From assembly GCA_018816645.1 (NCBI GenBank), contig JAHIVN010000067.1, positions 1 through 42,492 of the forward strand: a stretch of DNA of 42,492 bases, written 5' to 3'. Made by a program: the position numbers and the translations under genes. Every line of letters starts with the position of its first letter. Within the stretch, counting starts at the first letter, position 1. The notes under the pieces were generated by a model. That model worked only from the letters and a program-made list of their open reading frames with translations, was not told the DNA's origin and searched no databases. This DNA is from Patescibacteria group bacterium (lineage in GTDB: Bacteria; Patescibacteriota; Dojkabacteria; JAHIVN01). Positions 6,383-23,116 of this stretch are shown one piece after another.

Positions 6383-7718
6383 TTTGCAAAATCCATTAAG
6401 AATTTTAAAAAGGAAATTAAGGAAACGAAAGGTTAGAAAGAAAGGATTCCGGGCAAACACTCTACGTTTGGGAAGAAGAGATTCTGTTCGGAATAGCTCA
6501 AGGAAAAATGGCTATCTGAATATTCTTCCTGTTCTTGGGGTCATTATCCTTATCATAGGAATAGTTGGCTGGATTGCAGTCTCAATATTCAAGCTCTACA
6601 GCTTTGAGGTGAACAGAGCTTATAGGGATGAAAGAGTCATTGAGAAAGAATGGAAAGGAGAATCCCGATTAAACATACTTTTTGTAGGTTTGGATAGCAG
6701 AGAAGGGGAATATGCTTATGTCGATGCAATTATCTTAGTAATGCTTGATCCTGATTCAAAAACAGTTGGAATTTTTAATATTAATCCTGATACCAGTGTA
6801 TATGTTTCTGAGTACGATGTTGAGGAGAAGTTACGAAATCTATACAACAGGGGAGTAATAGATCAAGAATCTATTCCGATCCTACTGCTCGAGGATAAAG
6901 TTGAAAAGCTTTTTTCCATTAATATCGACCGGTATGTTCTCATGAGGGAGGAAGGGCTGGTTGAGATGGTGGATTCTCTTGGAGCTATCTATGTAAACAA
7001 TGAGGTGAAATTAATAGATCTAGATGCTGGACAAGGCGGAATTGATATTCTCCCAGGAAGCCAGCGTCTGGAAGGGAACGATTACTGGGGGTATGTTTCT
7101 GCTGATGCCTTGGGAGTAGAACAAAAATACATTCGGCAAAATGAAGCTTTAGAGAGCTTGCTGCAGAGATCTGTAAACTATGCAGTCTTCTTTAAAATTC
7201 CGCGGATTGTCGATACATTTAGTCGTACTGTCAGGACTGACTTGAGCAGACCTGAGCTGCTACGTTTGGCACTGACGATGAATAGAGCTAATGATGTAAA
7301 GTCTGGGTTTACAAAAGAATCTGCTTTTGAGAAGGTCAAATTGGATGAAGGAATCAGGCTTGTTCCGATTCTTGAAGAAATTGATCAAGATATCCAGAAA
7401 GTCTTTGTTGATCCTAGAATTAGCAAAGAACAGGCGAGAGTTGAGGTATTCAATTCGACAAATATAATTGGTTTGGGAGCATTTCGAGCTCGGTGGTTAC
7501 GAAATATAGGAGTTGACGTTATAAGAGTAGGGGATACGGCCCAAAGTTTCGAAGAATCAGTAATCTACTCTAAAGATCCTGAAGCATTTAAGTATACTAT
7601 AAATGGAATTAAGAAATCATTTGATGAGGAACCCGAGGTAGTTAAGGGAGAGCCGTCTGATATAATTTCTACAGGAGATGTAATTCTTATTATTGGAGGA
7701 AATGCGGAGGAGAACTAA
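6372..7718 (+). CDS. LytR-CpsA-Psr (LCP) family protein with C-terminal LytR_C domain, degenerate
   Basis: LCP proteins transfer lipid-linked glycopolymers to peptidoglycan outside the membrane. Here a basic cytoplasmic tail (residues 1-47) and one transmembrane helix (about 50-73) lead into an LCP domain starting NILFVGLDSR, with AYVDAIILVML where active members have RSDT-type sequence. INPDT (138-141) replaces the conserved PRDT, so the arginines that hold the polyprenyl pyrophosphate are missing. A LytR_C domain follows (ARVEVFNSTNIIGLGAFRARWLR in two halves, about residues 356-378). The start is TTG at 6372, or TTG at 6384; no ATG is available upstream of the helix. It is probably co-transcribed with the pseudouridine synthase. 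Confidence 0.75.
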   Translation: MGSNLQNPLRILKRKLRKRKVRKKGFRANTLRLGRRDSVRNSSRKNGYLNILPVLGVIILIIGIVGWIAVSIFKLYSFEVNRAYRDERVIEKEWKGESRLNILFVGLDSREGEYAYVDAIILVMLDPDSKTVGIFNINPDTSVYVSEYDVEEKLRNLYNRGVIDQESIPILLLEDKVEKLFSINIDRYVLMREEGLVEMVDSLGAIYVNNEVKLIDLDAGQGGIDILPGSQRLEGNDYWGYVSADALGVEQKYIRQNEALESLLQRSVNYAVFFKIPRIVDTFSRTVRTDLSRPELLRLALTMNRANDVKSGFTKESAFEKVKLDEGIRLVPILEEIDQDIQKVFVDPRISKEQARVEVFNSTNIIGLGAFRARWLRNIGVDVIRVGDTAQSFEESVIYSKDPEAFKYTINGIKKSFDEEPEVVKGEPSDIISTGDVILIIGGNAEEN

Positions 7719-9684: not shown

Positions 9685-10173
9685 ATGGATACAACAGTTT
9701 TGGGAGTGGATTGCGGTCTTGCTACAACTGGATGGTCAGTTGTTAGTAAAAGAAAAAATAGATTTTGTGTCTTAGGGTATGGAGTTATCAAGACCAAGTC
9801 TAAAGAAGAGCTCGGTGTGCGTATGCAGAAAATTTATAAATCTTTAAGGAGTGTTATCGGTGAATTTAAACCCAAGAGTGCAGGGGTCGAAAGCTTGTTT
9901 TATTTTAAGAATAAAAAAACTGTTATGACAGTGGGGCAGGCAAGGGGAGTGATTTTATTAGCAGTGGCTGATGAGAAATTACGTGTGTATGACTATACTC
10001 CCTTGCAGGTTAAACAAGCTGTAACGGGGTATGGGAAGGCAACCAAAAACCAAGTACAGCTTATGGTAAAGACCATACTTGGACTTAAGGAGAGTCCGAA
10101 ACCGGATGACGCTGCCGATGCCTTGGCAGTCGCGATTTGTCATCTCAATTCAAATTTAAAGTTGCTACCATAA
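9685..10173 (+). CDS. ruvC: Holliday junction endonuclease RuvC
   Basis: The 162-residue protein has the RNase H-like fold motifs: VLGVDCGLATTGW with Asp9, GVESLFYF with Glu69, and DDAADALAVAICH with Asp142 and Asp145, spaced like the four catalytic acids of E. coli RuvC. It cuts four-way junctions symmetrically together with RuvAB. The start ATG at 9685 follows a short tandem repeat (GTTATAGAT units) in the 18-base gap after yebC. The stop is immediately followed by the ruvA ATG. Confidence 0.95.
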   Translation: MDTTVLGVDCGLATTGWSVVSKRKNRFCVLGYGVIKTKSKEELGVRMQKIYKSLRSVIGEFKPKSAGVESLFYFKNKKTVMTVGQARGVILLAVADEKLRVYDYTPLQVKQAVTGYGKATKNQVQLMVKTILGLKESPKPDDAADALAVAICHLNSNLKLLP

Positions 10174-10770
10174 ATGATTGGCTACATAGAGGGGAAAATA
10201 AGATATATAAATGATAACAGTATTATTGTTGTATGCGGCGGTGTCGGTTACAAAATAGAACTGGGTGATTCTTCGAAAGATTTAAAGAAAGATGTTGAAG
10301 CATCTTTCTTTATTCATACACATCAAAGGGAGAATGAACTTAGTCTTTTTGGATTTAGAACGAGAGAAGAGCTAGAAATGTTTGAGCTTTTGATCGATGT
10401 GAGTGGAATTGGTCCTAAAGGTGCACTTCAACTGGTTACCGATATTGGTGTTCCACATCTAGTTAAAGCAATCCTGGAAAGTGATGCTGAAGGTTTGAAA
10501 GTCCCGGGTATTGGGAGGAAAACAGCTGAAAAAGTGATTTTAGAGCTTCGTGATAAGGTAGAGAAGGGGAGGTTTTCAAGCTTTGAAAGTAAAGCCAGTG
10601 GGAAAGATTCAAGACGAAAACTGGAAGAAGTAGCAGATGCTCTGAGGGCATTGGGATACACTTCCAGGCATGTAAGTAGTGTAGTTCCTGAACTCAAGCG
10701 GGTTGCTGGGTGGGAAAAGCTGTCGTTGCAGGCGCTAATAAAAATAATGCTGGAAAAAATCAATAAATGA
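10174..10770 (+). CDS. ruvA: Holliday junction DNA helicase subunit RuvA
   Basis: The 198-residue protein has an N-terminal OB domain (MIGYIEGKIRYIND...GVGYKIEL), paired helix-hairpin-helix motifs (LLIDVSGIGPKGALQLV and KVPGIGRKTAEKVILEL) and a C-terminal RuvB-binding three-helix domain (residues 150-198). It holds the junction open as a tetramer and loads RuvB. It starts directly after ruvC with no gap, and its TGA overlaps the ruvB ATG. Confidence 0.96.
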   Translation: MIGYIEGKIRYINDNSIIVVCGGVGYKIELGDSSKDLKKDVEASFFIHTHQRENELSLFGFRTREELEMFELLIDVSGIGPKGALQLVTDIGVPHLVKAILESDAEGLKVPGIGRKTAEKVILELRDKVEKGRFSSFESKASGKDSRRKLEEVADALRALGYTSRHVSSVVPELKRVAGWEKLSLQALIKIMLEKINK

Positions 10771-11795
10771 AAAGAAAAGATACTCCAAAAGAAGAAAATA
10801 GTCTGGATTTAGTTAGGTCTCTCCGCCCGCGAAAGTTTTCAGAAATGATTGGAAGAGTGAAGGAGATTAAGAATTTGGGTATTATGCTGGAAGCAGCTGA
10901 GAAGAGAGGAGAAGCCCTGGACCATATTTTATTTTATGGTCCGCCGGGTCTTGGAAAAACAACACTTGCAAATGTTGTCTCAAATGAGCTCGAGGTTGAA
11001 ATGCATGTAACTTCTGGGCCTGCAATTGAGAGACAGGGAGATCTAGTCTCAATTCTCACAAATATCTCTAAAAGAGGCATTCTTTTTATTGACGAAATTC
11101 ATAGGCTACACAGATCTATCGAAGAAATTCTTTATTCTGCAATGGAAGATAAGGTAATAGACATTATCATAGGGAAAGGGCCCTCTGCGAGAACTTTGAG
11201 ACTTGACCTTGAGGATTTCTCACTTATTGGAGCGACCACTAGAATAGGACTGCTCAGCTCTCCTCTAAGAAGTCGATTTGGCGCAAGCTTCAGGCTTGAT
11301 TATTATTCTTCTGAGGAACTCGCGACAATGGTTATGCATGCTGCAAAGTCACTTCAAGTTAGAATAGATCAATCCGGCGCAAGAGAGATAGCTAAAAGAT
11401 CCCGTGGAACAGCCCGAACTGCAATTCAGCATCTGAAACGTGTTAGAGATTACGTTCAGGTTTTGAATAAGCAAGGCATCACAAAATCAATTGTTGAGAA
11501 GGTTCTGGAGATGCATGAAATAGATAATTTGGGTCTGGACTATATAGATAGACGTATCCTGGATCTTATTGTCAAGGATTTTGAAGGTGGTCCTGTTGGT
11601 TTGTCCACCATTTCAGCGGCATTATCTGAAGAGGTCGAAACAATTGCAGATGTATACGAACCTTATCTTATTCAGGCAGGGTTTCTAAAGAGAACCCCAC
11701 GTGGTAGAATGGCAACACAGAAGGCTTTTAAACATATGGGATACAGCAGGAGAAAGGCTGTTTCACAAGCTAAATTGTTTTGTAGACATTCATGA
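10767..11795 (+). CDS. ruvB: Holliday junction ATP-dependent helicase RuvB
   Basis: The 342-residue protein has Walker A GPPGLGKTT (residues 58-66), Walker B ILFIDEIHRL, sensor 1 LIGATTRIG with SSPLRSRFG, and the C-terminal winged helix DYIDRRILDLI...TPRGRMAT. It is the AAA+ motor that drives branch migration with RuvA. The family's usual RGTPR is RGTAR here. It overlaps ruvA and the following membrane gene by four bases each (ATGA), so the operon is tightly coupled. Confidence 0.96.
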   Translation: MKRKDTPKEENSLDLVRSLRPRKFSEMIGRVKEIKNLGIMLEAAEKRGEALDHILFYGPPGLGKTTLANVVSNELEVEMHVTSGPAIERQGDLVSILTNISKRGILFIDEIHRLHRSIEEILYSAMEDKVIDIIIGKGPSARTLRLDLEDFSLIGATTRIGLLSSPLRSRFGASFRLDYYSSEELATMVMHAAKSLQVRIDQSGAREIAKRSRGTARTAIQHLKRVRDYVQVLNKQGITKSIVEKVLEMHEIDNLGLDYIDRRILDLIVKDFEGGPVGLSTISAALSEEVETIADVYEPYLIQAGFLKRTPRGRMATQKAFKHMGYSRRKAVSQAKLFCRHS

Positions 11796-12604
11796 AACTG
11801 CGATCAAAGGCAATCAGTTTGTCAGTCGCGTTTGTACTTGTTTTTTTTGTAACGCGCTTTTTAGATTTAGAGAAATTTTTTGGAGTAAACAATGAAATTC
11901 TTCGTGCTCTCATTGTTTCACTGGTATTTTTCGCAGGGCTTTCTTGGGTGCTCAATTTTAAGGTAAAAGGAATTCGCGTATTTACTATACTAGGTCATAG
12001 TGCATTTATAGTTTTTATTCAAACATTATTTCTTGAGCTGATTGTATTTCAAGATGCTAGTAGAATTAGTGAAAAGACTATCTCGCTATTGATCTTGTTT
12101 TTCTGGGGTGTTGTAATCTATTTTCTCGTACTTACGGTAAATATACTAAATGTGTCATTTATTTCTCAGATACCGCTTGGACAAGCTGCAAAAGCCTCAA
12201 GTTTTGTCTATTATCTATTCACTGCTTATTTTGCGTTTCTGTTAGTTTTAAGGTCAGGGGCTCCCCTACATATGAAGTTACTACTTTTTGTTGTCGTTAT
12301 AGTAATAAATACAGTAACAACTTTTTGGTTTAAAAAGGAATCGAATAAACAACTACTTACAGAGAGTGGGGCAGTGATATTTTTCATGATTACTGTTTTC
12401 GTTCTGATGATGATTTGGCCTTTGCCTGTGGAATTAGCCTCAATGTTTCTCATAATCATATATTACATACTTATTGGATTAGGATTAGAAGAGCGTGAAA
12501 CAACATCGCTTCTTATACGTGTCGAGTACTTTGTCATTCTAATTTTTGCCGTGATATTTCTCCTAAAGCTCTCTATCTGGGGCATAAACGGTACAATAGT
12601 CTAA
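11792..12604 (+). CDS. polytopic membrane protein of unknown function
   Basis: This 270-residue, strongly hydrophobic protein has about eight predicted membrane segments and short loops. Polar residues are sparse, and I see no motif for a known transporter or enzyme. It overlaps ruvB by ATGA and so closes the yebC-ruvCAB operon. A functional link to recombination is not evident. No clear terminator follows it. Confidence 0.75.
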   Translation: MKLRSKAISLSVAFVLVFFVTRFLDLEKFFGVNNEILRALIVSLVFFAGLSWVLNFKVKGIRVFTILGHSAFIVFIQTLFLELIVFQDASRISEKTISLLILFFWGVVIYFLVLTVNILNVSFISQIPLGQAAKASSFVYYLFTAYFAFLLVLRSGAPLHMKLLLFVVVIVINTVTTFWFKKESNKQLLTESGAVIFFMITVFVLMMIWPLPVELASMFLIIIYYILIGLGLEERETTSLLIRVEYFVILIFAVIFLLKLSIWGINGTIV

Positions 12605-13198
12605 TATTTCCCCATCTCTTCAATATCAAACTTAAAATACGAAATTTATTCTATATGTATTTCAAAAACAGCTTTTAAAAAGGCAGACAGTGCAAATTTT
12701 TTTTAGAAAAGAAGATATGTATGACGTGATAGATTTCTTAGAATTATTTTCGGTTCGTATAATTTATAAAGTATATATATATGTATATTTCAAAAATGAG
12801 AGTAATAGATGGAGTAGGGGAAAGAGTAAATATTTGAAGGGGAATATACTATAAGATATAAAACTATAGGGTGTATAAGATGGCTTTATAAATAATAGGT
12901 AGATAGGTTAAGAAATTGACTCCCAGTAAAAACAAACAGAGAGAGGTATCATTAGTATGCTCTATCGAGTATATATGTCAAAAAGTTTCATAAAAGAATG
13001 TTTCATAGAACGATACGATTGTGGATAAGTTGGGAATAGAAAGAGAAGTAGAAATTGTCATGAATGCGTAATATAAGTGAACGAAAGCAAAAAGGGACTT
13101 GTTGGAATTGTAAGAAAAAGTATAAACACTTTTAAGTATGTCGCAATATCGGAACATACTTCCCTATCCTTAGAAGTATCACTAATTGTGACTATTAC

Positions 13199-13232
13199 CT
13201 TATTGCGTATAATTACCCTTATACGTAATAAG
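13199..13232. other. candidate dif site (Xer recombination site)
   Basis: Two 11-base arms, ATTGCGTATAA (13202-13212) and TTATACGTAAT (13219-13229), are separated by the 6-base centre TTACCC, exactly the 11-6-11 layout of dif. The left arm matches 8 of 11 bases of the E. coli XerC arm (GGTGCGCATAA). The right arm keeps the TTAT core and the AAT end of the XerD arm. The symmetry extends to 14 bases per side with a single mismatch. It lies 270 bases upstream of a Xer-type recombinase and near the point where gene direction converges. Confidence 0.65.
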
Positions 13233-13497: not shown

Positions 13498-14538
13498 ATG
13501 ACAAAGAAACTTTTGCCCTATATGGATGAATATCTCCTTGAGCTGTCAAATAATAATTACAGCCTAGAGACGATCAAAAATTATGAGAGAGATCTTCTTG
13601 TTTTTATGGAGTTTCTGGCTATAAAAGACATAGCTTTTAAGAAAATTACCAAGAAAACCATCACTTTATATAAGGGATTTCTGAAAAGTGAAAATTATTT
13701 TCGTTTTCTAGAGGAAATTGGAGAAAAAGCCCAGGATGACGAGGATATCTCAAAAACGTGCTCAAAGGGGTCTAGAACTCGCGGTAGCGGTTCTAGTGGA
13801 CTATCATCTCGTTCGATAAATCGAATGTTGTCGGCGTTACGGTCTTTTTTGAGGTTCTTGATAGATTTTGATTACCGAGCACCTCTAGCACCAGATGCTA
13901 TAAAACTTTTGAAAACTGAACGCAAGGAAGCTAGAGTCCCGGAGTTTGAAGATCTCGTAAAACTGGTTGAATATCCCAGCAGTTTTGAAAAGAATAAATT
14001 TGTTGCTAGAAGAAACCGAGCAATACTAGAATTGCTTTTTTCCTCAGGCATGCGTATATCTGAGCTTGTAAATCTAAATCTTAAAGATGTAGACTTGACG
14101 TCAGATAGAAGGAAAATAAGAATGGGAAAACTTTACATACTTGGCAAAGGGAAAAAACAAAGATTTGTGTATCTAACCGAAAGATGTAAAGGTCATCTGG
14201 AAGAATATCTCAGGACTCGATCTGATCAATATGAGGCTTTGTTTATTCCTACAAAGGGTAAGAGAATGAATAAAGGACTGGCAAATATGAGAATTTCGGC
14301 TCGACACGTACAAAATAGAATAGCTCTGTATAGGAAATTGTTAGGAATCGTTGTTCCTGTAAGTCCGCACAGTCTGCGTCATGGATTTGCAACTTATCTT
14401 GCAGAAAAAGGCGCTAGCCCCGTAGCAATTCAGCGTCTGCTAGGTCATGAATCGCTTCAAACAACGACCCGCTATGTTCATGCTTCGGATAGATTTGCCG
14501 AGAAGACACACAGGAAATACCATCCGCTGAGTAAGTAA
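13498..14538 (+). CDS. Xer-type tyrosine recombinase
   Basis: The 346-residue protein has an N-terminal SAM-like DNA-binding domain and a C-terminal catalytic domain with all expected residues: Arg186 (SGMRIS), Lys217 (GKGKKQR), His291 and Arg294 (PHSLRHGFAT), His317 (LLGHESL) and Tyr326 (TTRYVH). Such enzymes resolve chromosome dimers at dif. Between the two halves of the N-terminal domain (residues about 73-102) there is an extra Ser/Gly/Lys-rich segment not usual in XerC/XerD. No second Xer is in the window, so this may be a single-recombinase system. A terminator follows. Confidence 0.9.
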   Translation: MTKKLLPYMDEYLLELSNNNYSLETIKNYERDLLVFMEFLAIKDIAFKKITKKTITLYKGFLKSENYFRFLEEIGEKAQDDEDISKTCSKGSRTRGSGSSGLSSRSINRMLSALRSFLRFLIDFDYRAPLAPDAIKLLKTERKEARVPEFEDLVKLVEYPSSFEKNKFVARRNRAILELLFSSGMRISELVNLNLKDVDLTSDRRKIRMGKLYILGKGKKQRFVYLTERCKGHLEEYLRTRSDQYEALFIPTKGKRMNKGLANMRISARHVQNRIALYRKLLGIVVPVSPHSLRHGFATYLAEKGASPVAIQRLLGHESLQTTTRYVHASDRFAEKTHRKYHPLSK

Positions 14539-14712: not shown

Positions 14713-15171
14713 CTATTCTAGAGATTTGATTTTGTAGTGGGTTTCTCCTCTTGGAGTTTTTACGATAATCTGCTCCCCTACCCTCTTTCCCAGCACTGCT
14801 TTTCCGATAGGAGAGTCGATAGAAATTTGTGTTTCATCAGCGGAAATCGCCTGTTCCACAAGCTTAAACTTTATTTTAGATTTTGAATTTACCAGTAGGA
14901 TTTCGCTTCCTATCTCAGCTTTAGTAAAAGTTCTCCCTTCTCGGTTTTGCAGTTTTTCTTGGTTTATCAACTGCAGCTCTAGGTGACTCATATGCTTTTC
15001 GATGAGGTCTCTTTCGTCAATTAGTTGATGATACTCCAAAATTCCCTCATCGTTTGTAGAACTCCTGCGGGTTTCTTCAAGCTGGTCAGTTAGCTGATCA
15101 AACTTTTCCTTTAGGCAAAGGAGTCTCTTTTCCAGATTCTTTATGTTTTTACACTTTCTGTTTTTTGGCAT
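14713..15171 (-). CDS. GreA/GreB-like transcript cleavage factor homologue, copy 1
   Basis: This 152-residue protein has the two-part Gre layout. The N-terminal antiparallel coiled coil (residues 8-72) has an acidic tip (NDEGILEYHQL) aligning with the GDLSENAEYH tip that reaches the RNA polymerase active site. The C-terminal FKBP-like domain ends ISIDSPIGKAVLGKRVGEQI, IVKTPRGETHYKI. Gre factors rescue backtracked RNA polymerase. The tip appears about one residue shorter than in GreA, so cleavage activity is uncertain. A clear paralogue lies 72 bases upstream. The start is the ATG at 15171. Confidence 0.8.
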   Translation of the reverse strand: MPKNRKCKNIKNLEKRLLCLKEKFDQLTDQLEETRRSSTNDEGILEYHQLIDERDLIEKHMSHLELQLINQEKLQNREGRTFTKAEIGSEILLVNSKSKIKFKLVEQAISADETQISIDSPIGKAVLGKRVGEQIIVKTPRGETHYKIKSLE

Positions 15172-15243: not shown

Positions 15244-15699
15244 TTAGATAAATTTCTCGATGATGTAAGGTATTTCACCTTTTGGCAGGGAAACCTTGAT
15301 CTCGTCTCCGATTTTCTTGCCTTCGATAGCCTTGCCTATAGGTGACTCAGCCGTCACGTGGCCTTCGGAGGGGTTGGCATCATCTACCGATACAAGGCAC
15401 ACTTCAAGTGAACCGGTATGGTTTTGAAGCCTAACACACTTTCCGACTTCAATAGTGTCAGTTTGTTTTTTGGGACTTAGAAATTTTTCTCTCCCTATGA
15501 TTCTTTTCTTTACAAGGTCGATTTGCTTCTTGACGAATTGTCTTTCGGTAAGAAGCTCTTGATAGCTCCAGGTTTCATCTGAGATCATACCTGATAGTCT
15601 CTCTTGTTCCAATTGATTTGTGAGATCTTCGTACTTTTCCTGAAGACATGCAAGCCTCTCTTCTAGATCCTTTATATCTCCGCAGTTTTTGTTTTTCAT
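15244..15699 (-). CDS. GreA/GreB-like transcript cleavage factor homologue, copy 2
   Basis: This 151-residue paralogue of the next gene has the same start (lysine-rich, then DLEERLACLQEKYEDLTNQLE) and the same Gre C-terminal signature (ESPIGKAIEGKKIGDEIKV). The acidic tip reads SDETWSYQEL. The two copies have diverged strongly in the middle, which suggests an old duplication and perhaps separate roles. A near-consensus promoter (15773-15801) lies about 75 bases upstream of the ATG, so this gene opens a two-gene operon. Confidence 0.8.
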   Translation of the reverse strand: MKNKNCGDIKDLEERLACLQEKYEDLTNQLEQERLSGMISDETWSYQELLTERQFVKKQIDLVKKRIIGREKFLSPKKQTDTIEVGKCVRLQNHTGSLEVCLVSVDDANPSEGHVTAESPIGKAIEGKKIGDEIKVSLPKGEIPYIIEKFI

Positions 15700-20488: not shown

Positions 20489-23116
20489 CTATATTATCGC
20501 TATAGCCGCAACTTGATCTCCCTGCTTGATTCGCATGAGTCTCACGCCGCCAGTCTGCCTGTTTCTCTCTGGAAGATCATTTGTGGGTATCTTTACAGCT
20601 TGCCCGGATTTGGCCATGATCAAGAGTTCTGCACCTGGGTGATCAACCACTCTGGCTACTGCCAGCTTCCCAGTTTTCTCTGAGAGCCGGGCTGTAAACA
20701 CTCCCTGCCCTCCTCTTCCCTGAAGCGGGTACTGGCTCATCTTGGTGACCTTTCCGAAACCCAAGTCAGAGATTGTGAGCATGAGATCTTCATTTTTACG
20801 GATAACATCCATAGAGATGACTTCATCATCGGCAAATTTGAACTTGATGCCTCTGACGCCCATGGTTGCTCTTCCTGTTTCTCTCACATCTTTTTCTGAG
20901 AAATGTATGCTCCTGCCGTATCTTGTTATAAGAATGACATCATTCTCTCCAGTTGTCGGTCTGACCCAGTTGAGTTCATCATTTTCGGCAAGTTTGACAG
21001 CAATCAAGCCGTTAGCTCGTATCTTGTCAAAGTCTTCAACTGCAGTTTTCTTTACTGTGCCGTGCCTAGTAGCCATAAATAAGTACTTGAAATCCTTACC
21101 CTTGTTCTCTAGAGTAATCTGATCCTCTAGGATCATATCTTCTTCGATAACACCCTCTTTAGACCTTGTCAAAATGCTTGTTATAAGCTCATCTTGATCA
21201 ATGTCGATAAGATTTATTATGGCTTGGCCCTTTGCTGTTCTGCCAAATTCAGGTATGTCGTATACTTTATGCTGGAAAACGCGTCCTTTTGTAGTGAAAA
21301 ATAGTATGTTATCGTGAGTGTTGCAGCTGAAAACATGTGCAACCGAATCTTCTTCCTTTGTAGTCATGCCTTTCTTTCCTTTTCCGCCTCTCTTTTGTAC
21401 ACGATATGTGCCCTGTTTCATTCTTTTGATGTATCCCTGCTCACTTACTGTCACCAGAACTTCTTCGGCAGCAACGAGATCTTCTTCTGTAAATTCATCC
21501 ACTTTACCTTTATATACTTTTGTTCTTCGTTCGTCTGCAAATTTCTTTCTTACCTCTAAAAGTTCGGCACGAATTATGTCCAAAACCTTTTTGGGTGTTT
21601 TCAGGACAAAGAGCAAATCCTTTATTGTTTCCTGTATCTTCTTGTATTCTTCCTCAATCTTTTGTCTTTCTAAAGCGGCCAGTCTTCGTAACTGCATGTC
21701 CAAAATTGCCTGGGATTGAATCTCTGAGAGCTTAAACTTCTTTATCAAGTTCGCCTTTGCAGTATCTGCATCTTTTGACTTTCTAATTGTATCAATAACA
21801 TCGTCAAGATTTGCAAGAGCAATTATAAGTCCTTCGAGAATGTGTTCCAGTTCACGTGCTTTTGCAAGGTCAAACTCGCTCCTTCGTGCCACTATCTCCT
21901 GTCTGTGCTGGATGAATAACTCTAAAATCCTTTTTAATGTCAGAATTCTCGGCTCTCCATCGACTAAAGCCAGCATATTGGCATTAAATGCCTTCTGCAT
22001 CTCAGTCATCTTATATAGTTTGTTGAGTATCGTTTTTGGTTTACCGTCTTTTTTGATATCTATGACGACTCGAAGCCCTTCCTTATTTGATTCGTCACGA
22101 ATATCTGCTATACCTTCAATTCTTTTGTTTCTAACAAGATTAGCAATCTTTTCTACTAGGCGAGCTTTATTTACCTGATACGGTATTTCAGATATGATTA
22201 TGTTGAATCTGCCACCCGTTGTTTCTGATATACTAGCCTTTGCTCTCATAAGGATTCTTCCGCGGCCTGTAGCATAGGCGTTTGCAATCTCCTTTGCGTC
22301 ATAAATAGCGGCTGCTGTTGGGAAGTCAGGACCGGGGATAAATTCCATCAATCTGTCTACGGTTACTTCTGATTCGAACTTAGGAAATCTCTCCTGGGAA
22401 AGGATTTTTAGGTCTTCTGTAGTCTTGATGTTTTCAAAATAATTTAGTGGAGTTTTCACTTTGCCATTTGAAACCCATCGGTTTCCCTTCCTTATCATGT
22501 CGATAATGGCATCAGTGATCTCTCCGAGATTATGCGGAGGAATTTTTGTTGCCATACCAACTGCTATTCCTTCGGTTCCATTTAGAAGCAGATTTGGAAT
22601 GGCTGCTGGAAGCACAACTGGTTCCCTGTAGCTGCCGTCATATGTTGGGATGAAGTTGACGGTATTCTTTTCGATGTCAGTAAGCATCTGCATTGCAATT
22701 TTGTGAAGCCGGCATTCGGTATATCGCATAGCTGCAGCACCATCTCCGTCGACTGACCCGAAGTTACCCTGTCCGTCAATGAGCATATAACGAAGAGAAA
22801 AGTCCTGGGCCATCCTAGCAAGAGCATCGTATACGGAAACATCTCCATGCGGGTGGTATTTACCAATAACATCTCCTATTGTTCGAGCTGATTTTTTGTA
22901 TGAACCTGAAGGGAGAATTTTTTGCTTAAACATAGAATACAGAATTCTTTTCTGCACAGGCTTAAGGCCGTCTTTTACATCAGGAAGGGCTCTAGATACT
23001 ATCACACTCATAGCGTAGTTGATATAATTTGTCCGCATCTCCTGTGTAATCGATGTTAAAACGATTCCTTTAGTCTGATTCTGTTTTACGGTTGTTTCCT
23101 GTTTATCGGTTGTCAT
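20489..23116 (-). CDS. gyrA: DNA gyrase subunit A
   Basis: The 875-residue protein has the type IIA topoisomerase breakage-reunion domain with catalytic Tyr132 ([10 protein letters not shown]) and a C-terminal beta-pinwheel. The GyrA box QKRGGKG (about residues 574-580) marks it as gyrase, able to wrap DNA and introduce negative supercoils, and not as ParC. In the quinolone-binding helix the sequence is [10 protein letters not shown], so the position of E. coli Ser83 is Val93, while the acidic residue equivalent to Asp87 is kept. It lies 106 bases downstream of a small membrane gene in the gyrB-side gene group. The ATG has no Shine-Dalgarno sequence. Confidence 0.97.

Follow-up and report, generated by a model that had tools for sequence, protein, structure and literature searches.

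A candidate chromosomal dif site beside an Xer recombinase gene in Dojkabacteria, with KOPS-type polarity converging on the site

A 28-bp element in a stretch of 42,492 nucleotides (the window), which is one contig of a 140-contig, 1.65-Mb draft genome, very probably represents the chromosomal dif site of this Dojkabacteria lineage, with the adjacent 346-aa Xer protein as its recombinase. Computed support for this reading comes from the site itself, its single copy, its co-conservation with Xer, the intact catalytic residues of the latter, the presence of FtsK with a gamma domain, and an octamer polarity that converges on the site, the FtsK-guiding octamers being the strongest evidence. An earlier note on this DNA had called the element a dif site, a call that is strongly supported by the single copy, by conservation both linked to and independent of xer, and by the KOPS-like convergence. 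When homologous recombination leaves a chromosome dimer, septal FtsK would read KOPS of the GRGNAGGG type via its gamma domain and pump DNA to the site from both sides, two dif copies would synapse with Xer monomers on both arms of each, and strand exchange around the asymmetric 6-bp centre would yield two monomers. Binding and cleavage of the site, the assignment of Xer to the arms, activation by FtsK, and dimer resolution are predicted here from sequence. A non-exhaustive search of the open literature (including CPR, Saccharibacteria and Parcubacteria, with dif, Xer or KOPS) returned no dif site for Patescibacteria. The xer-dif module would offer a target for dimer resolution in a large radiation of uncultured bacteria.

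Table 1. Coordinates of the candidate dif site, neighbouring genes and octamers in the window
Feature	Position	Strand	Remark
Candidate dif core	13202..13229	+	ATTGCGTATAA arm (11 bp), TTACCC centre (6 bp), TTATACGTAAT arm (11 bp); basis: single copy, kept across the class and in other Patescibacteria
Extended 14-6-14 near-palindrome	13199..13232	.	13 of 14 arm positions complementary
Xer tyrosine recombinase, 346 aa, XerC/XerD/XerA-like	13498..14538	+	Pfam Phage_integrase and SAM-like N-terminal domain
ruvC	9685..10173	+	conserved neighbourhood, one side of the site
ruvA	10174..10770	+	conserved neighbourhood, same side as ruvC
ruvB	10767..11795	+	conserved neighbourhood, same side as ruvC
270-aa protein	11792..12604	+	no Pfam or NCBIfam match; between ruvB and the site in several families
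gyrA	20489..23116	-	conserved gene on the opposite side of the site from ruvCAB
KOPS/SRS-like octamer GAGAAGGG	6700..6707	+	toward site
KOPS/SRS-like octamer GAGTAGGG	7525..7532	+	toward site
KOPS/SRS-like octamer GAGAAGGG	10561..10568	+	toward site
KOPS/SRS-like octamer GAGTAGGG	12812..12819	+	toward site
KOPS-like octamer GGGTAGGG	14776..14783	-	toward site
KOPS/SRS-like octamer GAGAAGGG	14935..14942	-	toward site
Two overlapping KOPS-like octamers (GGGCAGGG, GAGGAGGG)	20703..20715	-	toward site
KOPS-like octamer GAGCAGGG	21435..21442	-	toward site

The site and its recombinase

The candidate core has exactly the 11-6-11 layout with a TTACCC centre that the earlier note had described, and agrees with the dif-type format of 28 bp, 11-bp arms, a 6-bp centre, and inner arms of the TATAA/TTATA type. 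Its left arm matches E. coli dif at eight of 11 positions. Ten of the 11 arm positions are complementary within the core, and three 11-6-11 palindromes were observed in the window versus 0.575 expected from dinucleotide shuffles, indicating that the inner palindrome by itself is unremarkable. The symmetry extends to 14 bases, as had also been noticed; palindromes of the 14-6-14 type with at least 13 of 14 complementary positions were observed once versus 0.005 expected per dinucleotide-shuffled window. Several copies of the 28-mer, which the note had named as grounds for refutation, were not found in the own draft genome, where it is the sole match at up to three mismatches. The relatives in the class likewise carry one copy per genome, save G013 with one extra, weaker copy. 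This second dif-like 28-mer (ATAGCGTATAAATATACTTATACGGAAT; L035:1501-1528, G013:C8:233102) lies within an open reading frame at a distance of about 7 kb from the second Xer paralogue; G013 has the normal site as well.

The xer open reading frame starts 268 bp downstream of the site, close to the spacing of 270 bases first reported. The catalytic set of the encoded protein (R, GKGKK box, H, R, H, and Y) is kept in 108-109 of 109 relatives, the K box being scored at the neighbouring glycine column. The Xer proteins closest to it among named organisms come from Candidatus Dojkabacteria (85% and 70% identity) and from other Patescibacteria. The best-scoring families are XerC (TIGR02224; 191 bits, cut-off 335), XerD (TIGR02225; 175 bits, cut-off 330), and XerA (NCBIfam NF040815; 168 bits, cut-off 220), all under their equivalog cut-offs. 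The XerS family scored 124 bits (cut-off 267), and no XerH family model occurred among the family matches of the protein. The best solved-structure match was a XerC-like chain (4a8e), presumably the XerA protein of Pyrococcus abyssi, with E. coli XerD also among the best.

That only one Xer acts at dif, as the earlier note had supposed, is unproven, because a degenerate paralogue (X2, 296 aa) exists. Its catalytic K box is lost and its first H is replaced by N in 29 of 29 aligned proteins. The X2 gene of the own genome (L004:1447-2337; G000:C104) adjoins a gene that is FtsB/DivIC-like by eye. A further integrase-like fragment (L003; G000:C127:2501-3085) is found on a small contig, with a 255-aa open frame resembling XerA and integron integrases. 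A dif site served by two proteins, with Xer on one arm and X2, structural or weakly catalytic, on the other, is rather unlikely; it would be compatible with dif and contests solely the action of a single recombinase. Such a division of labour would fit the retention of X2 in 54 of 58 class genomes with its R, R, H, and Y residues conserved, and the greater variability of the right arm over the left in one family. The arms are nearly symmetric, as expected with one protein on both, four genomes, including at least two with the site (G006 and G055), lack an X2 match at the threshold used, and X2 is without any link to the site. The near-symmetric arms favour one active protein that would serve both.

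FtsK-guiding octamers

Of the 58 class genomes, 57 encode an FtsK with a gamma domain. The octamer GRGNAGGG, which covers both the KOPS of E. coli (GGGNAGGG) and the SRS of B. subtilis (GAGAAGGG), points toward the site 185 times and away from it 24 times within about 6 kb of 65 sites, and GGGNAGGG does so 86 and six times, respectively. This convergence was absent when the octamers at the 65 sites were counted around pseudo-sites shifted by 2.5-4 kb. KOPS-type polarity converges on the site, with GRGNAGGG and AGAGNAGG as candidate target words of FtsK-gamma. In the window, 11 of 12 GRGNAGGG octamers point toward the site and one away (p = 0.006), which is a modest signal alone; the context in the own genome spans 42 kb. 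Outside Dojkabacteria, GGGNAGGG in plus-strand genes is counted 31:1 on the left of the site and 0:13 on its right.

Whole-genome polarity was assessed by sampling about half of each genome, more densely near the site. The maximum-likelihood strand switch of the 7-mer AGAGNAG lies 0-3 kb from the site in six genomes, namely G010 (switch 761,411-765,595; site 761,652), G029 (731,102-733,591; 733,531), G003 (255,734-255,927; 256,777), G009 (256,618-256,769; 259,365), G019 (241,152-242,925; 242,597), and G011 (157,064-157,173; 157,116). The polarity switch of G014 is broad (334-557 kb) and merely compatible with the site at 395 kb. With gene strand controlled, AGAGNAG ranks first among 4096 gapped 7-mers (z 8.6; five genomes, G010 set aside). 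AGGGNAG and GGAGNAG come next, which defines a family, RGRGNAG, at the core of both E. coli KOPS and B. subtilis SRS. The word AGAGNAG was first spotted in a toward-site count, before the blind test. In the blind search of gapped 7-mers, it was the most strand-polar word in G010 only and among the top motifs in G029; in G010, with the site not used, its switch fell at the sampled-stretch boundary at the site. The strongest polar words of G003 and G009 in this search track GC skew instead.

It is very unlikely that the octamer convergence is a mere by-product of converging genes or replication-strand bias and no marker of dif. The genes left of the site nearly all face it and the motif is purine-rich, as such a by-product would have it, but the AGAGNAG flip holds separately within plus-strand and within minus-strand genes in most genomes, and the z score of this word over all six genomes is 10.5, versus 5.4 for the next motif of the same composition. 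Furthermore, the polarity of this word runs counter to GC skew on the stretch from dif to the skew terminus in G003 and G010, where RGRGNAG words point at the site (165:82 and 127:36, respectively). They have no clear direction there in G009 and G014.

Position relative to the skew terminus and known Xer systems

Deriving a terminus from the GC skew of the window was abandoned, as skew there tracks gene direction; third-codon-position GC skew split by gene strand replaced raw skew and resolved the replichores clearly. In the single-contig genomes G003, G009, and G010, the skew terminus falls at 20-45, 60-80, and 950-1000 kb, respectively, and in G014 at about 585-690 kb, each time near the antipode of the skew origin. 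Forcing the terminus onto the site costs 270 (G003), 155 (G009), 38 (G010), and 192 (G014) log units. The offset between site and skew terminus amounts to 180-240 kb, or 17-27% of the genome, in G003, G009, and G010, so that the terminus position claimed in the earlier note is not supported there. The skew extremum, which it had expected at the site, lies elsewhere in at least three genomes, yet KOPS convergence at the site is present. In G029, the skew ends 20-67 kb beyond the site, which is compatible with a terminus at the site; in G019 and G011, the skew has no sign switch at the site, nor does GC skew switch there in G014. The dnaA gene was rejected as an origin marker, being at the skew minimum in G014, near it in G029, and elsewhere in G003, G009, and G010.

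The lack of a skew switch at the site in G003, G009, and G010 suggests that dif is uncoupled from the replication terminus in these genomes, and the convergence of KOPS on the site suggests that dif function is retained although the terminus claim is dropped. The preferred reading places dif and its KOPS, whether shifted there or maintained there, away from the zone where forks meet; rearrangement or assembly error in every off-terminus genome is possible but less likely. A general uncoupling of the FtsK/KOPS/dif axis from the terminus in Dojkabacteria, with forks meeting opposite the origin and dif and KOPS convergence lying about 160-320 kb from the origin, has the balance of probability slightly in its favour. 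On this reading, the GC-skew switch is at the antipode, and KOPS between dif and terminus would oppose, or ignore, replication strand bias. If true, it would represent a natural experiment showing that selection for dif, and not inheritance from GC skew, maintains the polarity of KOPS. In Proteobacteria and Firmicutes, the offset between dif and skew shift is within 3% of the genome (PMC3025954), which made the two hard to separate before. In at least three relatives, the site would be a quarter-turn from the end of replication, so that two features that normally go together come apart. Since KOPS polarity tracks dif and GC skew tracks the antipode in some genomes, sequence alone can be used to test if replication terminates at dif and if KOPS are a mere by-product of strand bias.

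Among known systems, archaeal XerA/dif (Pyrococcus abyssi, Thermococcales) has polarised words and a dif about 120-142 degrees from oriC (PMC2958812). Features in common with Dojkabacteria are a near-palindromic site of 28 bp with the 11-6-11 layout, short polarised sequences toward dif, a dif that is not 180 degrees from oriC, and, probably, a single main recombinase. In contrast, archaea lack FtsK, whereas Dojkabacteria possess FtsK-gamma and octamers of the KOPS/SRS type; the xer and dif loci of Dojkabacteria are usually adjacent, as in Sulfolobales and unlike in Thermococcales, and their protein remains below the NCBIfam XerA cut-off. Similarly, the single-recombinase modules XerS/difSL and XerH/difH, in which the recombinase gene is linked to the site (PMC5357621), have this linkage and one catalytically complete chromosomal Xer in common with Dojkabacteria. 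However, difSL is 31 bp long with an 11-bp centre and difH has arms of 11 and 10 bp, versus the standard 28 bp in Dojkabacteria, whose protein falls far below the XerS cut-off and is accompanied by a second Xer-like paralogue. The XerC/XerD-dif systems of E. coli and B. subtilis share the 28-bp site, FtsK-gamma, and the KOPS/SRS family with Dojkabacteria; the latter differ in having only one catalytically intact Xer, nearly symmetric arms, and a site that often adjoins xer and is off the GC-skew terminus in several genomes.

Conservation and gene neighbourhood

Four pattern searches and a scan of Xer loci retrieved the site in 47 of 58 class genomes; in the other 11, no site was matched by the patterns used. 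The consensus of the 28-mer in the class and in other Patescibacteria is ACTGAGTATAAT-nn-CCCTTATACTCAGT, and that of 65 sites is ACTGAGTATAATAnCYCTTAYACTCAGT, with GTATAA invariant. The Xer-locus scan revealed the same 28-mer upstream of most Xer orthologues across Patescibacteria, mostly with 5-600 bp between the end of the site and the start of xer. A sample of 250 genomes from the phylum contained 15 with the site. All seven site-bearing genomes outside the class had a close Xer orthologue, with the site at most about 600 bp away; no site was matched in non-class genomes of this sample whose only Xer protein is diverged, nor in four non-class genomes with a close Xer orthologue. The seven co-occurrences and the lack of sites beside diverged Xer alone indicate that site and Xer travel together. 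Conservation of the 28-mer beside Xer orthologues of relatives, another check that had been suggested, was thus found, and it extends to sites that are independent of xer.

In Dojkabacteria, the gene order is ruvC-ruvA-ruvB-(270 aa)-site-(xer)-gyrA; outside this class, the genes around the site and Xer differ. The site still lies between the ruvB-270 aa pair and gyrA in G029, with xer at 205 kb from the site, and in G024, with xer on another contig. It adjoins gyrA at 185 kb from xer in G014 and is situated between gyrA and ruvB in G051; xer is 1-23 kb from the site in other families. The gene convergence noted earlier holds in part. On the left, ruvC, ruvA, ruvB, and the 270-aa gene face the site; the first gene on the right, xer, faces away, and minus-strand genes start at 14.7 kb. 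Two neighbouring, differing GreA/GreB-like genes are located there on the minus strand (14713-15171 and 15244-15699), the former scoring well under the NCBIfam GreA cut-offs. The family match of the GyrA protein (875 aa) is interrupted at about residues 212-249, which points to a short insertion.

An operator or promoter, with GTATAAT resembling a -10 box and Xer or another protein regulating xer, is a highly improbable explanation of the palindrome. In many Patescibacteria, 5-75 bp separate the end of the site from the start of xer, and TATAAT is invariant or nearly so, as might be expected of a promoter. Nevertheless, the site is unmoved when xer is kilobases or 185-205 kb off, and its retention between ruvCAB and gyrA where xer has moved indicates that it is not the promoter of xer, a reading mostly refuted by this. 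Moreover, a Kaiserbacteria/Zambryskibacteria group has the asymmetric core in the opposite orientation with respect to xer, and a promoter leaves the octamer convergence unexplained. That the palindrome is an attachment site used by an integrating element, or belongs to a site-specific inversion system, is extremely improbable: a tyrosine recombinase beside an inverted-repeat site is also the layout of integrase and att, but the single copy per genome, with no second one as attL/attR, the vertical conservation within the ruvCAB-gyrA neighbourhood, the KOPS-like convergence, and the absence of a match to the site among 2.9 million viral contigs contradict it. The Patescibacteria-type xer-dif module was also retrieved from MAGs named Dehalococcoides, Dehalococcoidia, or Chloroflexi (L058, L064, L068, L070, L076, and L088), which are probably misnamed bins.
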